Below are positions 23,742 to 29,232 of a stretch of DNA of 32,081 nucleotides, one piece after another. This DNA is from Alphaproteobacteria bacterium. Its GTDB lineage: Bacteria > Pseudomonadota > Alphaproteobacteria > Acetobacterales > Acetobacteraceae. The notes beneath the pieces are model-generated. The model was given only the letters and a program-made list of their open reading frames with translations. It was not told the DNA's origin and searched no databases. Position 1 is the stretch's first letter, and each line of letters starts with the position of its first letter. Both the position numbers and the translations under genes were made by a program. Location: contig JAPLOJ010000239.1 in assembly GCA_026400795.1 (NCBI GenBank), positions 1 to 32,081 on the forward strand, given 5' to 3'.

Positions 23742-25007
23742 GTGAACACCATGCCCCCCGATCCCACCCAGGCCTTGGAACAAGCCGCGCGCGCCGCGCG
23801 TGCGGCGACTATTGCGCTGGCTGGCGCGCCAAGCGCGGTGAAGGATCAGGCGTTGCTTTTGGCGGCGGCCGCCTTGCGTGAGCATCAAGCGCAGATCATC
23901 GCCGCCAATGCTGAAGACATCGCCGCCGCGCCTGGGTTGTCGCCCGCTTTTCGTGATCGGCTGCTGCTGAATGCTGCGCGCATTGAAGCCATGGCCAAAG
24001 GGCTTGAGGAAGTCGCCGCGCTGCCTGACCCCGTTGGCCGCGTGCTGGCGGAATGGCAGCGCCCCAATGGGCTGCGCCTTCAACGCGTGGCGCAGCCACT
24101 TGGCGTAATCGGCATGATTTTCGAAAGCCGACCCAATGTCACCGCCGATGCTGCCGCGCTCTGCCTCAAATCTGGCAATGCGGTGATTCTGCGTGGCGGG
24201 TCAGAAAGTCTGCGAAGCGCTACCGCCATCCATGCCTGCATGGCGCAAGGGCTGAAGCTGGCGGGCCTGCCGGAAGCTGCGGTGCAGGTTGCGCCGAGTG
24301 CTGACCGCGCCTTTGTCGGCGCCATGCTGCGCGCTTCCGGGCTGATTGACCTGATCGTCCCGCGAGGCGGCAAGGGCCTGGTGACGCGCGTTTTGGAAGA
24401 AGCGCGTGTGCCGGTGCTGGCCCATGCGGAAGGGCTTTGCCACACTTACATTCATGCTGGCGCGGATCACGCCATGGCGCGCGCCGTGCTGGCGAATGCC
24501 AAGATGCGCCGCACCGGCGTTTGTGGCGCAACCGAAACCCTGCTGATTGATGCCGCCATCGCGCCTGCACTTTTGCCCGCCCTAATTGCGGATTTGCGCG
24601 CCCTTGGCTGCGATTTCCGCGCTGATGAGGCAGCAAGCGCCATTGTGCCCGGCCTGATCGCCGCAACCGATGAAGACTACGGCACTGAATGGCTGGACGC
24701 GATCTTATCGGTGAAAGTGGTTGCCGGTGTTGACGAAGCGCTGGCGCATATCCGCCGCTTCGGCAGTGAGCATACGGAAGCGATCATCACCGAAGATGCC
24801 GCTGCCGCGCAGCAATTCCTGGATGGCATTGCTTCCGCGGTTGGGCTCTGGAATGCGTCCACGCAATTCTGCGATGGCAGCGAATTCGGCTTTGGCGCCG
24901 AAATCGGCATCGCGACCGGGCGGCTGCATGCGCGCGGGCCTGTGGGGCTCGAACAGCTTTGCACCTATCGCTACAAAATTTTCGGCACGGGTCAGGTCCG
25001 GCCGTGA
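23742..25007 (+). CDS. proA: Gamma-glutamyl phosphate reductase (glutamate-5-semialdehyde dehydrogenase)
   Basis: A 421-aa cytosolic enzyme that makes glutamate-5-semialdehyde from gamma-glutamyl phosphate with NADPH in proline synthesis. Landmarks are GVIGMIFESRPNVTADA (121-137), the LCLKSGNAVILRGG segment, the PRGGKGL loop (207-213), and the catalytic Cys261 in RRTGVCGATETLL. The C-terminal QFCDGSEFGFGAEIGIATGRLHARGP and LCTYRYKIFG are signature blocks. The GTG at 23742 has AGAAAGG 11 bases upstream; an ATG at 23751 is also possible. proB is not in the window. Its stop overlaps the next gene by one base (TGATG). Confidence 0.96.
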   Translation: MNTMPPDPTQALEQAARAARAATIALAGAPSAVKDQALLLAAAALREHQAQIIAANAEDIAAAPGLSPAFRDRLLLNAARIEAMAKGLEEVAALPDPVGRVLAEWQRPNGLRLQRVAQPLGVIGMIFESRPNVTADAAALCLKSGNAVILRGGSESLRSATAIHACMAQGLKLAGLPEAAVQVAPSADRAFVGAMLRASGLIDLIVPRGGKGLVTRVLEEARVPVLAHAEGLCHTYIHAGADHAMARAVLANAKMRRTGVCGATETLLIDAAIAPALLPALIADLRALGCDFRADEAASAIVPGLIAATDEDYGTEWLDAILSVKVVAGVDEALAHIRRFGSEHTEAIITEDAAAAQQFLDGIASAVGLWNASTQFCDGSEFGFGAEIGIATGRLHARGPVGLEQLCTYRYKIFGTGQVRP

Positions 25008-25927
25008 TGGGGCGGCGGTTTTTCGCGGCGCTGCTGATGGGCCTTGCGCTTACGCCCGCCGCTGAGGCAGCCTGCCCGGATGATACGGCGATTGCGCGCT
25101 TCGCCGGGCAGATACTGCAGCGCCAATCGCCCACCCCCTTCGCCGCGCTGTCACCCGCTGAGGGGCGCTGCGTACAGAACAAGCTGATTGCGATTTTCGC
25201 TCAACCGCAAAATTTTCCGTTGGTCGCATTTTCCGAGTCGCCAAGTGATTCCACTTGGCTTGAAAATGCTCCGGGCGATGTTGTCGGCTTCAAGCTTGGC
25301 CTGACCAATCCGGCTATCCAGCAACGCTTCGGCATTGATCACCCGATCCGTGGCAGTATTTTCCACGCCACCTTGCGCGCGAGTTCGGGCGCCGAGATCG
25401 AAGCGCGCTTTGGCGCTGTGCCAGTGCTGGAAGCGGATATGTTGGTGCGTATTGGCATGGGTGGTGTGGAGGCTGCGCTCAATGATCATGCCGCGCTGAT
25501 CCGCCATATTGATCAGGTTATCCCCTTCATTGAATTGCCCGATCTGGTCTATGCGCCCGATTACCGTCCAAGCCTTGGCGATCTGCTCGCTGCCAATGTC
25601 GGCGCGCGGCTTGGCGTACAGGGCCGGCCCATTGCCGTGACGCCAAGCGCGGAATTCGCCGCGGCCTTGGGGCGCATGAGTGTTTCACTCCATCAGGATG
25701 GGCGGGAGATTTCGCGCGCGCCGGGGGCGGCCATTCTCGGCCATCCCTTGAATGCACTCGCCTGGATCGCACGGGATCTGGCGCGGGAGGGGCGCCCCTT
25801 GCGAGAGGGGGACATGATCTCCTTGGGCTCCTTCTCCCCGCCGCAGCCGGTGGTGGCGGGTCAGGTCTGGACCGCGCGCTATGAGGGGCTTGGTGAGGCA
25901 CAGGATGTGGTGGTGCGCTTCCGGTAA
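25007..25927 (+). CDS. Secreted 2-keto-4-pentenoate hydratase/FAH-like protein
   Basis: A 306-aa protein from the ATG at 25007. The first 21 residues are a signal peptide (RRFFAALLMGLALTPAAEA), so the protein should be periplasmic. The mature part resembles the MhpD/fumarylacetoacetase C-terminal fold: VVGFKLGLTNPAIQQRFGI then HPIRGSIFH, a mid-segment LEADMLVRIG, VIPFIELPDLVY, and ILGHPLNALAWIARDL followed by LREGDMISLGSFSPP. LEADM and PFIEL sit where the family usually has its acidic metal ligands. MhpD-type hydratases are cytosolic enzymes of aromatic ring breakdown, so export is unusual. It is wedged between proA and nadD. The role is unknown; it could be an enzyme or a binding protein. 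Confidence 0.72.
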   Translation: MGRRFFAALLMGLALTPAAEAACPDDTAIARFAGQILQRQSPTPFAALSPAEGRCVQNKLIAIFAQPQNFPLVAFSESPSDSTWLENAPGDVVGFKLGLTNPAIQQRFGIDHPIRGSIFHATLRASSGAEIEARFGAVPVLEADMLVRIGMGGVEAALNDHAALIRHIDQVIPFIELPDLVYAPDYRPSLGDLLAANVGARLGVQGRPIAVTPSAEFAAALGRMSVSLHQDGREISRAPGAAILGHPLNALAWIARDLAREGRPLREGDMISLGSFSPPQPVVAGQVWTARYEGLGEAQDVVVRFR

Positions 25928-26606: not shown

Positions 26607-27503
26607 ATAGCCCGCAAGCCCACCCCGGCTGAAGAAAGCCCAAAGCGGCGCGTCGCCGCCGAGCCAAAACCCAAAGCCGCGACCAAGGCCAAGGCCAGCC
26701 CCAAGCCGAAAGCCGCCGCCGCGCCCAAGGTGAAGGCCGCGCCGAAAACCGCTGCCGCCAAGCCAGCGCCGAAGCGTGCTGCGGCCAAAGCCACCGCAGC
26801 CAAGCCAGCGCCAAAGCATGCCGCCAAGGCCAGCAAGGCCGCGCCGAAAACCGCGGCTGTCGCGCCAGGGCCGAAACGCGCCGCCACCAAAGCCGCCGCG
26901 GCTAAGCCAGTGCCAAAGCCTGCCGCCAAGGCCAGCAAGGCTGCGCCAAAAACTGCTGCTGCCGCGCCAGCGCCGAAGCGCGCCGCCGCCAAAGCCGCGG
27001 CAGCTAAGCCAACGCCAAAGCCTGCCGCCAAGGCCAGCAAGGCCGCACCAAAGACGAAGGCCGAGCCCAAGGCAAAACCCGCCACCAAGGTCACAGCGCC
27101 ACGCCCCGCCCGCGGCAGGCGGCGCGAAAAAATTGCACCGGACCGGCTGGAAATACTTGTAGAGGCCGCCCGCCAAAGCCTGGAAGACGACAAGGCCGAA
27201 AACATCGTGATCTTGGACGTGACTGGCCGCGCCGATTACACGGACCGGCTGATCATCGCGACCGGCCAGGTTGAACGCCAATTGCAAGCCATGGCGACGC
27301 ATTTGGATGAAGCGCTCGGCAAGGCGGGGTTGCACATCAAGCGCGATGCCATTCAGGCCTCGGGCGATTGGGTGCTGATTGATGCGGGCGATCTGGTGAT
27401 CCACCTGTTCCGCCCCGATGCGCGGGAACTCTATCGCCTGGAACGCATGTGGGGCCCCGAAAGCCCGCTGACGACGGAGGCTTCCGACGCCGCGCCCGAC
27501 TAG
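26607..27503 (+). CDS. rsfS: Ribosome silencing factor RsfS with long Lys/Ala/Pro-rich N-terminal extension
   Basis: The last 122 residues are a normal RsfS domain ([18 protein letters not shown], then [17 protein letters not shown], and [16 protein letters not shown]), which binds ribosomal protein uL14 and stops subunit joining under stress. In front lie about 176 residues of Lys/Ala/Pro-rich sequence in 34-residue repeats, like histone H1 tails; family members are usually 105-130 aa in total. No ATG is present at the expected start: AGGAGG at 26596-26601 is followed after 5 bases by ATA at 26607, in frame and open throughout. The first canonical start is a GTG at 26730, without its own ribosome site, giving 257 aa. 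I take ATA as the likely start (inference). Confidence 0.88.
26733..27059 (+). repeat. 102-bp tandem repeat in rsfS (34-aa Lys/Ala/Pro unit, three copies plus a partial)
   Basis: Copies begin at 26733, 26835 and 26937, exactly 102 bases apart, with a partial copy from 27039. Each codes for KAAPKTAA, then PKRAA, then KPxPKxAA and KASK. The copies differ by scattered substitutions, so the array is not brand new, but it stays in frame. Confidence 0.88.
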
Positions 27504-27504
27504 G

Positions 27505-27954
27505 ATCATCGCCATCGGGCGTATAAAGCCCGGGCCAGAAGCCGCCCTTTACGCGCATTACGCGGCGCGGCTACGCCCGGCGCCCGAATTGGTCGAAATC
27601 CCCGAAGCGCGCGGCAGTGAAGCCGAAATCCGCCGCCGCGAAGGCGCCGCAATCCTGGGCGCCATCCCGGCCGGCGCGGTGCCCATTGCCTTGGACCTTG
27701 GCGGCGCCATGCCCGATACGGAAAGCCTGGCCGCGCTGCTGACACGCTGGGATGAGGCCGGGCGCAGCGCCTGCTTCATCATTGGCGGGGCGGAGGGGCT
27801 GGATCCCGCCGTGCAGGCGCGCGCGGAATATCGGCTCTCACTCGGGCCGCTTACTTGGCCGCATTTTCTGGTGCGCGGCATGCTGGCCGAGCAGCTTTAC
27901 AGGGTGCAGGCGATCAGGACCGGGCATCCTTATCACCGGACTTGGCGGCCCTAA
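27505..27954 (+). CDS. rlmH: 23S rRNA (pseudouridine1915-N3)-methyltransferase RlmH
   Basis: A SPOUT methyltransferase that methylates pseudouridine 1915 of 23S rRNA. Typical blocks are [21 protein letters not shown] at the N-terminus, VEIPEARGS, the SAM-binding [11 protein letters not shown] and the C-terminal knot [19 protein letters not shown] then HPYHR. The frame is open from 27472, but there is no ATG, GTG or TTG before the conserved N-terminus; the first canonical start (TTG, 27589) would cut off the first beta strand. Candidates are ACG at 27487, 6 bases after a GGAGG at 27476-27480, or ATC at 27505, where I place the left end. rsfS ends at 27503. The start is uncertain; the gene identity is not. 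Confidence 0.88.
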
Positions 27955-27991
27955 TGCGCAAAGCGGTTGCTGCAATAAATCTGGCCTCTTG

Positions 27992-28100
27992 CGCCCGCCA
28001 AAGGCGGGCGAGCGCCCGAATGGGCGCCGCTGCTTATGCAGCGAAGCCTAGCGCGCGGAGGCGCGCGCCGGCGTCTGAGGGCGGATCGGCCACGATCCGC
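27992..28100. repeat. Array of five consecutive perfect hairpins (REP/BIME-like or structured RNA)
   Basis: In 109 bases between rlmH and ada there are five back-to-back perfect inverted repeats: 27992-28010 (8 bp, 3-base loop), 28012-28027 (6 bp, loop GAAT), 28028-28043 (6 bp, loop TTAT), 28051-28066 (6 bp, loop GGAG) and 28081-28100 (8 bp, loop GCCA). None has a T-run after it, so they are not ordinary terminators. The sequences of the five stems differ, so this is not one unit repeated. A mobile palindromic element or a folded leader RNA of ada would both fit. Confidence 0.75.
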
Positions 28101-28167
28101 GACACAGGAATTAAGTGAAAGCAAAAAGCGGATGGCGCGTGGGGCGCGCTTGGCCGAACTTACCAAC

Positions 28168-29232
28168 ATGAACGACACGCTCGAAAATCTTGATGATGCC
28201 CGCTTCGCCGCCGTGCTGGCGCGCGATCCCGCGTCCGCCTGTGGCGCTTTTCTTTACGCTGTTACCAGCCAGGGGATTTATTGCCGCCCCGGCTGTCCTT
28301 CCCCCGCGCCGCTGCGCCGGCATGTCCGTTTCTTTGCCGATTGGGGCTCGGCAGAGGCCGCTGGCTTTCGCCCCTGCAAGCGCTGCGACCCGCGCGGCGA
28401 TCGCGCGCGGATGCAAGCGGAGGCGGTGCGTGCCGCCTGCGCCATGATCGAAGCAGCCGAAGGAATACCATCGCTGGCGAGCCTCGCCGCGCGCGCTGGC
28501 TATGCGCCGCATCACTTTCAGCGAATGTTTCGGGACATCACCGGCGTCACGCCGCGTTCCTATGCTGAGGGCGTGCGCGGGAAGCGACTTTCAGCCGCAC
28601 TTGCCGAAGGGGCGCGCGTTGCGGAAGCCGTGGCAGGTGCAGGCTTTGGCAGCGAAAGCCGCGTTTATGAAAATACCGCGCGCCATCTTGGCATGCGCCC
28701 TGGCCGTGCGCGGCGTGGCGGCGCCGGTGAGGTCATTCGCATCGCCTGGGCCGAGAGCTCCTTCGGCCCGCTGCTGCTAGGCGCCACCGAACAAGGCGTG
28801 TGCTTCCTGGGCTTTGGTGAGGCGCGCGATGCGCTGGAGGGTGATTTGCGCGCACGCTTCCCCAAGGCGCGGGTGGAGGCAGCGCCCGAGGCTTTGGCCG
28901 CCCTGGCCAAGCGCGCGATTGGCTTCATCGCCGAACCGCGCGCCGCCCTGGATTTGCCGCTTGACCTGCGCGGCACGATTTTTCAGCGCAGGGTCTGGGA
29001 AGCGCTACGCGGCATTCCGCTTGGCCAGACCACAACCTATAGCGCGCTCGCCGCTGCCATGGGTGAGCCCAAGGCGACACGTGCGGTCGCGCGTGCTTGT
29101 GCGCAGAACCCAGTTTCGCTGGCGGTGCCCTGCCATCGCGTGGTGGGGAAGGATGGCGATGTGACGGGCTATCGCTGGGGGGTGGCGCGCAAGCGGGCGT
29201 TATTGGCGGGGGAGCGAGGCAAGCAGGCTTGA
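28168..29232 (+). CDS. ada: Ada: bifunctional DNA repair methyltransferase and AraC-type regulator
   Basis: A 354-aa protein, the same length as E. coli Ada. The N-terminal domain repairs methylphosphotriesters using Cys39, one of four zinc ligands (Cys39, Cys43, Cys70 and Cys73). An AraC-type helix-turn-helix follows (about 85-185: LASLAARAGYAPHHFQRMF). The C-terminal O6-methylguanine methyltransferase domain carries the acceptor Cys322 in PCHRV. Methylation of Cys39 turns E. coli Ada into an activator of its own regulon (family knowledge). The ATG at 28168 is chosen to match the family N-terminus; 28132 is an in-frame alternative. No alkB or alkA is adjacent. The hairpin array lies in its 5' region. 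Confidence 0.95.
   Translation: MNDTLENLDDARFAAVLARDPASACGAFLYAVTSQGIYCRPGCPSPAPLRRHVRFFADWGSAEAAGFRPCKRCDPRGDRARMQAEAVRAACAMIEAAEGIPSLASLAARAGYAPHHFQRMFRDITGVTPRSYAEGVRGKRLSAALAEGARVAEAVAGAGFGSESRVYENTARHLGMRPGRARRGGAGEVIRIAWAESSFGPLLLGATEQGVCFLGFGEARDALEGDLRARFPKARVEAAPEALAALAKRAIGFIAEPRAALDLPLDLRGTIFQRRVWEALRGIPLGQTTTYSALAAAMGEPKATRAVARACAQNPVSLAVPCHRVVGKDGDVTGYRWGVARKRALLAGERGKQA

Follow-up and report, generated by a model that had tools for sequence, protein, structure and literature searches.

A five-hairpin block between rlmH and ada in an Acetobacteraceae genome is probably a decayed copy of a MITE-type mobile DNA element

The five-hairpin block at 27992-28100 between rlmH and ada is probably an old, end-decayed copy of a non-autonomous, MITE-type multi-hairpin mobile DNA element. 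It lies in a window of 32,081 nucleotides from contig JAPLOJ010000239.1, and all positions given here are on the forward strand of that window. The element is best described as working like a MITE or a REP-like mobile palindrome, and in membership it fits MITEs best. The block is not an ada-specific RNA. The best reading of the family is that it is new and consists of non-autonomous mobile palindromes of Alphaproteobacteria. It adds a widespread mobile palindrome family to this class that is not in Rfam, and no description of it was found in the open-licence literature searched, judged mostly from listings.

The position of the block between rlmH and ada was confirmed by Pfam, which identified both neighbours. 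The upstream gene rlmH (27511-27954) encodes a SPOUT methyltransferase (SPOUT_MTase, E 5.9e-37), 27511 being the edge of the Pfam query. The downstream gene ada (28168-29232) matched Ada_Zn_binding, HTH_18 and DNA_binding_1. An RsfS domain was also found among the neighbours. By its translation, the frame before this domain is a long low-complexity Ala/Lys/Pro-rich repeat region at window positions 26730-27140. The longest Ada frame opens within the third hairpin, at 28036. A likelier start is the ATG at 28168, which 18 of 19 aligned species share (ATA in G017). Because the longest frame reaches back into the element (28036-28167), automatic annotation may put the ada start inside it.

Direct reading and an exact-hairpin scan recovered the five perfect GC-rich hairpins in a row, with loops of 3-4 bases, that the original prediction had described. 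The stems are 8, 6, 6, 7 and 8 bp long, all perfect, and the G+C of the block is 0.76. H1 (27992-28010) has an 8-bp stem and the loop AAA. In relatives with TACC ends the first hairpin is either terminal or just internal to the TACC. The core hairpins H2 (28012-28027) and H3 (28028-28043) have 6-bp stems with the loops GAAT and TTAT, respectively. H2 is present also in relatives of the same genus and of other genera, and its base has two non-standard pairs in 8 of 24 window-type copies. One H3 pair is C-G in 18 and T-A in 5 of these 24. The linker between H3 and H4 (28044-28051) is AAGCCTAG in the window and AAGCCAAG in the family form, and the window copy is missed by the strict linker pattern because of this one change. 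H4 (28051-28068) has a 7-bp stem and the loop GAGG. The fold encloses it in a 3-bp GCC/GGC outer stem (28046-28072; 28046-28048 with 28070-28072), which is invariant in all 24 window-type copies. The linker CGGCGTCTGAGG (28069-28080) leads to the last hairpin H5 (28081-28100), with an 8-bp stem and the loop GCCA. H5 is replaced by a different last hairpin in other lineages, and two species carry a similar hairpin by itself at another site. The whole inserted unit probably covers 27960-28110 (about 151 bp), its edges being estimated from an alignment of 19 rlmH-ada regions, 8 of them without the stretch. It comprises a left arm of about 32 nt, the 109-bp hairpin block and about 10 nt on the right.

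The density of self-pairing was unusual, as had been claimed. The window contained 46 perfect hairpins (stem at least 6 bp, loop 3-4), and the five within this 110 bp were the densest run. In 100 first-order Markov resamples of the window the mean total was 30.6 hairpins, and the maximum per 110 bp was 1 (11 resamples), 2 (86) or 3 (3). The block with its flanks (27960-28130) folded at -90.3 kcal/mol (z = -4.5) and none of 200 dinucleotide shuffles was equally stable. The high G+C of the block could suggest that such hairpins arise by chance or from base composition in GC-rich DNA, but the shuffles, the resamples and the lack of any control matches leave this a negligible probability, and the copies dispersed elsewhere refute it. 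A GC stem followed by a T run was sought at 27850-28250. No such terminator-like site was present there, in line with the hairpins as first described, and an intrinsic terminator is ruled out by the lack of a T run. No sigma-70-like promoter was found in the same interval.

Copies of the block are dispersed through related genomes. A search with 351 bp around the block in 35 genus genomes, the window's included, gave many matches to the hairpin block only (about query 109/113 to 221/225), besides matches to the rlmH and ada flanks. Twenty copies elsewhere in related Neoroseomonas genomes were approximately 90-97% identical to the window copy in alignment, with flanks that were unrelated or fell into a few shared sites. 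Short dispersed copies at unrelated places, a mark of MITEs, are found in the genus. A covariance model, R1, was built on the 24 window-type copies, leaving aside L039 (broken H5) and the interrupted L055-L057. Its E-values are rough, and at 1e-5 or better it matched in 30 of the 35 genomes. At least one match of at least 86 bits was found in 18 of 19 small-genome species (2.6-4.2 Mb; exception G024). Most large-genome species of the genus carry divergent relatives by R1, which have H2, H3, H4 and the linkers in common and different ends. Copy numbers are lower bounds, with 18-20 candidates scored per genome in sequence searches and 110-150 with R1. The many intergenic copies expected of a mobile palindrome were seen in relatives; the window's own genome (84% complete) gave this copy and one further divergent member of 47 bits among the 150 of 8400 candidates scored.

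A linker pattern with H4 left free was found in 67 of 397 genomes of the family. These belong to 17 of 102 genera, and one genome has as many as 58 copies; the reversed-pattern control gave 0 matches in every row of this survey. In the class survey the pattern was present in 10 of 289 genomes, namely the window's own and 9 outside its family from 6 other families. These pattern surveys fix both linkers, so that linker conservation in them is by construction, and leave H2, H3, the ends and both parts of H4 (stem and loop) free. A wider record survey gave at least 120 loci, of which 80 have organism names from the records and the other 40 were examined by sequence. Carriers among the matches listed were Roseomonas, Falsiroseomonas, Neoroseomonas, Plastoroseomonas, Roseicella, Roseococcus and Rubritepida, and further Azospirillum, Nitrospirillum, Niveispirillum, Paramagnetospirillum, Sphingomonas, Erythrobacter, Qipengyuania, Croceicoccus and Sandaracinobacteroides. 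A few matches, Halochromatium and Acetatifactor among them, were rejected as chance pattern matches with no hairpin. Head-to-tail tandem copies were found at five loci (L112, L184, L203, L241, L242). The window block had no match in a plasmid search. Three plasmids, two of Niveispirillum and one of Tistrella, matched a relative from Azospirillum (L151); an incomplete gene table lists no gene under these matches.

Presence and absence were compared at fixed sites. At rlmH-ada, 19 intergenic regions were aligned, from the window and 18 species. The whole block was present in 5 of 19 (G000, G032, G004, G017, G031) and interrupted inside H3 by approximately 102 nt in 3 (G019, G028, G029). Remnants were found in 3, on the left in G005 and G018 and on the right in G003. 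The block was absent in the remaining 8 (G020-G027). On a tree of the flanking coding DNA, with mixed support, these states were spread over clades, and the empty junction was identical in several clades. The scattered presence and the same empty junction fit equally an old insertion with repeated loss, precise excision or exchange. At a second, convergent site with 16 aligned species, 4 had the element, 2 a lone H5-like hairpin, 6 a palindrome of another family and 4 neither. Of these last four, two had almost nothing at the site and the other two had neither palindrome. This alignment left out G025 (on two contigs) and 2 of 17 orthologues, L265 and L266, whose flanks are separated by about 0.8 kb of other DNA. 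The stretch that is present or absent matches intact relatives in size, with about 151 bp at ada and about 159 bp at the second site. Empty orthologous sites, also a mark of MITEs, were found at both.

Intact relatives are mostly 146-159 bp long with TACC...GGTA ends and 3-bp TNA target duplications. A TACC on the left and a GGTA on the right were found within range in 20 of 167 copies, and a few of these pairs look like chance. The outside 3-mers were equal in 12 of these 20 (permutation mean 4.6, maximum 11 in 10,000; p about 1e-4). In an earlier scan, which gave preference to equal 3-mers, the count was 13 of 21, with 12 of the 13 units at 146-159 bp and one at 200 bp. These counts exclude L183 and L189, which are matches without a hairpin, and L222 is also out of the 167. 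The ten copies fetched from G016, out of 15 R1 matches, all had TACC-type ends, in some cases with bases changed, and read by eye were flanked by TGA/TGA or TCA/TCA. G704 (CAIXKV, a metagenome-assembled genome) had 616 end motifs compared to 5 for the reversed control. In many G704 copies the TACC...GGTA ends are part of the terminal hairpins, and such ends are carried by copies of G016, G006 and G704. In the G704 stretches examined a scan gave eight pairs, all flanked by TGA or TCA, but it retained equal-3-mer pairs only and is therefore no test of duplication. Five of the pairs were 147-162 bp; the other three were a 51-bp unit of ends only and two longer pairs spanning more than one unit. 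The 51-bp unit (L333:520-570) consists of two TACC ends alone with TGA on each side and is a possible minimal, core-less form.

The window copy and 20 clean-ended loci of its sub-family, not all of them independent, have no TACC ends. These 21 loci also have no common flanking 2-9-mer at any edge offset tried. The case for mobility of the window sub-family thus comes from dispersal and empty sites. The mobile part of the original REP/BIME-like suggestion is supported by many intergenic copies in relatives, by empty orthologous sites and by the ends of relatives with their target duplications. No autonomous partner was found at the 26 of 35 end-motif sites accounted for in G016. Fifteen of the 35 were copies already found and 11 were read, 10 of which were element-sized (some with no H3 and H4) and 1 unrelated; the other 9 were weaker sites with 3 mismatches. 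Long inward-facing end pairs in the G704 stretches examined, with about 100 of the 616 sites listed, had no transposase-like frame by eye.

The placement of copies was determined with a custom codon-usage gene caller. Of 123 copies with called neighbours, 46 were between convergent genes, 42 and 33 between co-directional genes and 2 between divergent genes. In the background of 427 adjacent gene pairs from the same loci, 74 were convergent and 91 divergent, and the two co-directional arrangements numbered 133 and 129. Seven further copies were inside called frames. The count omits L183, L189, L222, copies less than 400 bp from a locus end and copies missing a called neighbour on one side. Divergent promoters are thus avoided (2 of 123), and among co-directional copies neither strand is clearly preferred (42 vs 33). 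The convergent enrichment (46/123 compared to 74/427), together with the presence of different palindromes in different species at one convergent site, is what would be expected of hairpins that end transcription in both directions or protect mRNA 3' ends, recruited from mobile palindromes and retained. This is possible but on balance rather unlikely, as there is no T run, the convergent site is nearly empty in 2 of 16 species with neither palindrome in 2 more, and insertion that spares promoters yields the same placement.

The pairing of the stems was examined across copies. In 169 copies H4 had 82 different stems with 94% of pairs Watson-Crick, compared to a mean of 61% and a maximum of 70% in an arm-swap control (equal-length stems, 2000 shuffles). 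The H4 loop was GGA or GGAN in 70 of the 82 distinct stems, and C-G and G-C were about equally common at inner positions. In the 24 window-type copies 96.5% of cells pair. Cells with double changes numbered 6 vs 1.5 in shuffles, above all 500, but pairs with double changes numbered 2, an unremarkable value that 64 of 500 shuffles reached. Summed over H2-H4 there were 29 G-T and 23 A-C mismatches (p 0.49), although the stem-choosing rule favoured G-T. This count omits L183, L189, L222 and 3 of 172 copies with an unparsed or weak H4. In 15 tRNAs of the same loci, 7.8% of bracketed pairs were G-U (26 of 333), compared to about 1% in the element; A-C is not countable in this control, because ARAGORN brackets standard pairs only. 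Since G-T and A-C mismatches are equally rare, the data favour pairing kept at the DNA level over the RNA level, with the reserve that the comparison comprises 52 mismatches. Two pairs of intergenic sites with similar left and right flanks, L122 (a Croceicoccus metagenome-assembled genome) with L159 (Erythrobacter) and L198 with L217, were seen in a comparison that omits L183, L189 and L222. The H4 stems differ within each pair and still pair, as does H3 between L198 and L217. Such sites are a natural test of block-wise stem replacement.

The strong covariation of H4, the recurrent loops, a fold far more stable than shuffles and copies in probably transcribed regions could also be explained by a multi-copy structured non-coding RNA or an mRNA leader or 3'-UTR element, whose stems covary because the RNA must fold. 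This is judged improbable. Rfam 15 gave nothing on the element, either in window 27500-28600 (E up to 1) or in 10 loci (E up to 0.5), and the sole match above gathering score was an ordinary tRNA beside the copy in L086. G-T and A-C mismatches are equally rare, G-U is more frequent in the tRNAs than in the element, and orientation relative to co-directional genes is without clear preference. The more specific proposal of a structured RNA or leader controlling ada is rejected, as the block is dispersed, is missing from the ada site or reduced to a remnant there in 11 of 19 species and interrupted in 3 more, has no Rfam match and has no excess of G-T over A-C or of G-U. Stem diversity within genomes with near-perfect complementarity and no G-U excess makes the family a natural data set on the upkeep of inverted repeats, for which selection on the DNA fold, gene conversion and template switching are candidate routes. 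It is also a caution that such covariation is not proof of a functional RNA.

Bacterial MITEs such as Correia elements, RUP and ERIC are short, multi-copy, palindromic and intergenic, with inverted ends and small target duplications. The element is likewise short, multi-copy, palindromic and located between genes, and a subset of its relatives has inverted ends and small target duplications. It differs from MITEs in its internal array of three hairpins with freely varying stems and fixed linkers, in the TACC ends with TNA duplication of that subset and in having no known partner insertion sequence. With REP/BIME sequences as described in PMC3733652 it shares a palindromic and dispersed nature, mostly convergent or co-directional placement, heterogeneous stems and a patchy distribution over Alphaproteobacteria. 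REPs are reported to occur mainly between convergent and unidirectional genes (PMC3733652). A true REP/BIME, mobilized by a transposase of the RAYT (Y1 tyrosine) type, would account for intergenic palindromes, tandem copies and the avoidance of divergent regions, but is very improbable here. The RAYT domain PF01797 was found in 0 of 25 carriers tested and in 2 of 40 genomes overall (G125, G128), both of which lack a pattern match. The window sequence and the copy alignment have no GTAG tag beside a 20-40-bp stem. CGTC occurs in the element in the linker after H4, where it is followed by TGAGG and no stem. In CGTC-tagged REPs the tag precedes a stem of 8-9 bp whose first pairs are A-T, and such repeats are reported missing from Acetobacteraceae (PMC3733652). 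A CGTC-tagged REP is ruled out by the tag position, as the CGTC is not at the foot of a stem starting with A-T. REPs are single tagged stems of 20-40 bp (PMC3733652), whereas the element is 109-159 bp with no RAYT in the carriers tested, and its intact relatives, unlike those REPs, have TACC inverted ends and TNA target duplications. Strict REP/BIME membership was therefore not upheld on the absence of RAYT from the 25 carriers, the missing GTAG tag and the different placing of CGTC.

On the preferred MITE-type reading, an intact element would have TACC...GGTA ends within or next to the outer hairpins H1 and H5 and a core of H2, H3 and H4 with the linkers AAGCCAAG and CGGCGTYTGAGG. A putative transposase acting in trans may cut at the TACC ends and insert at TNA, which would produce the 3-bp duplication. 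The hairpins may be kept because they fold as single-stranded DNA or as a cruciform; the fold would be needed for mobility, or the hairpins could be perfected by template switching. Copies would survive where promoters stay unbroken. A more tentative proposal, itself unlikely, is that a putative enzyme reads the H2-H3-H4 core, in the form of a single folded strand of DNA, as a signal for transposition or maintenance. The enzyme would recognize loops and linkers (the GGA loop, AAGCCAAG and CGGCGTYTGAGG) and need only paired arms, so that stems could drift freely as blocks, from C-G to G-C with few wobble intermediates. The same core could then acquire different end types in different lineages. 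If true, this would be a class of mobile element defined by DNA fold and not by sequence.

Rickettsia palindromic elements (RPE), mentioned in PMC3733652, are, like the five-hairpin family, mobile palindromes of Alphaproteobacteria; they are known for in-frame insertion into genes, whereas the five-hairpin family is mainly intergenic. A second palindrome in the window, at 25206-25268 (GCATTTTC...CCAAG...CTTGGC...GAAAATGC), is RPE-like. It is an in-frame insertion of 63 bp, or 21 amino acids, in ORF 24959-25927, whose FAA_hydrolase match of 21.6 bits is below the Pfam cut-off. Of 17 aligned species, G000, G032 and G003 have the insertion and 14 lack it. At up to 3 mismatches there were 46 copies in the window genome (control 0), 39-127 in 7 other small-genome congeners and 0 in 4 large-genome ones; the copies often form tandem arrays at intervals of 55-60 bp. 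Copies of the first family can contain this second one: three species (L055-L057) have it inside H3 at ada, and several further copies (L090-L096) have it between H4 and H5.
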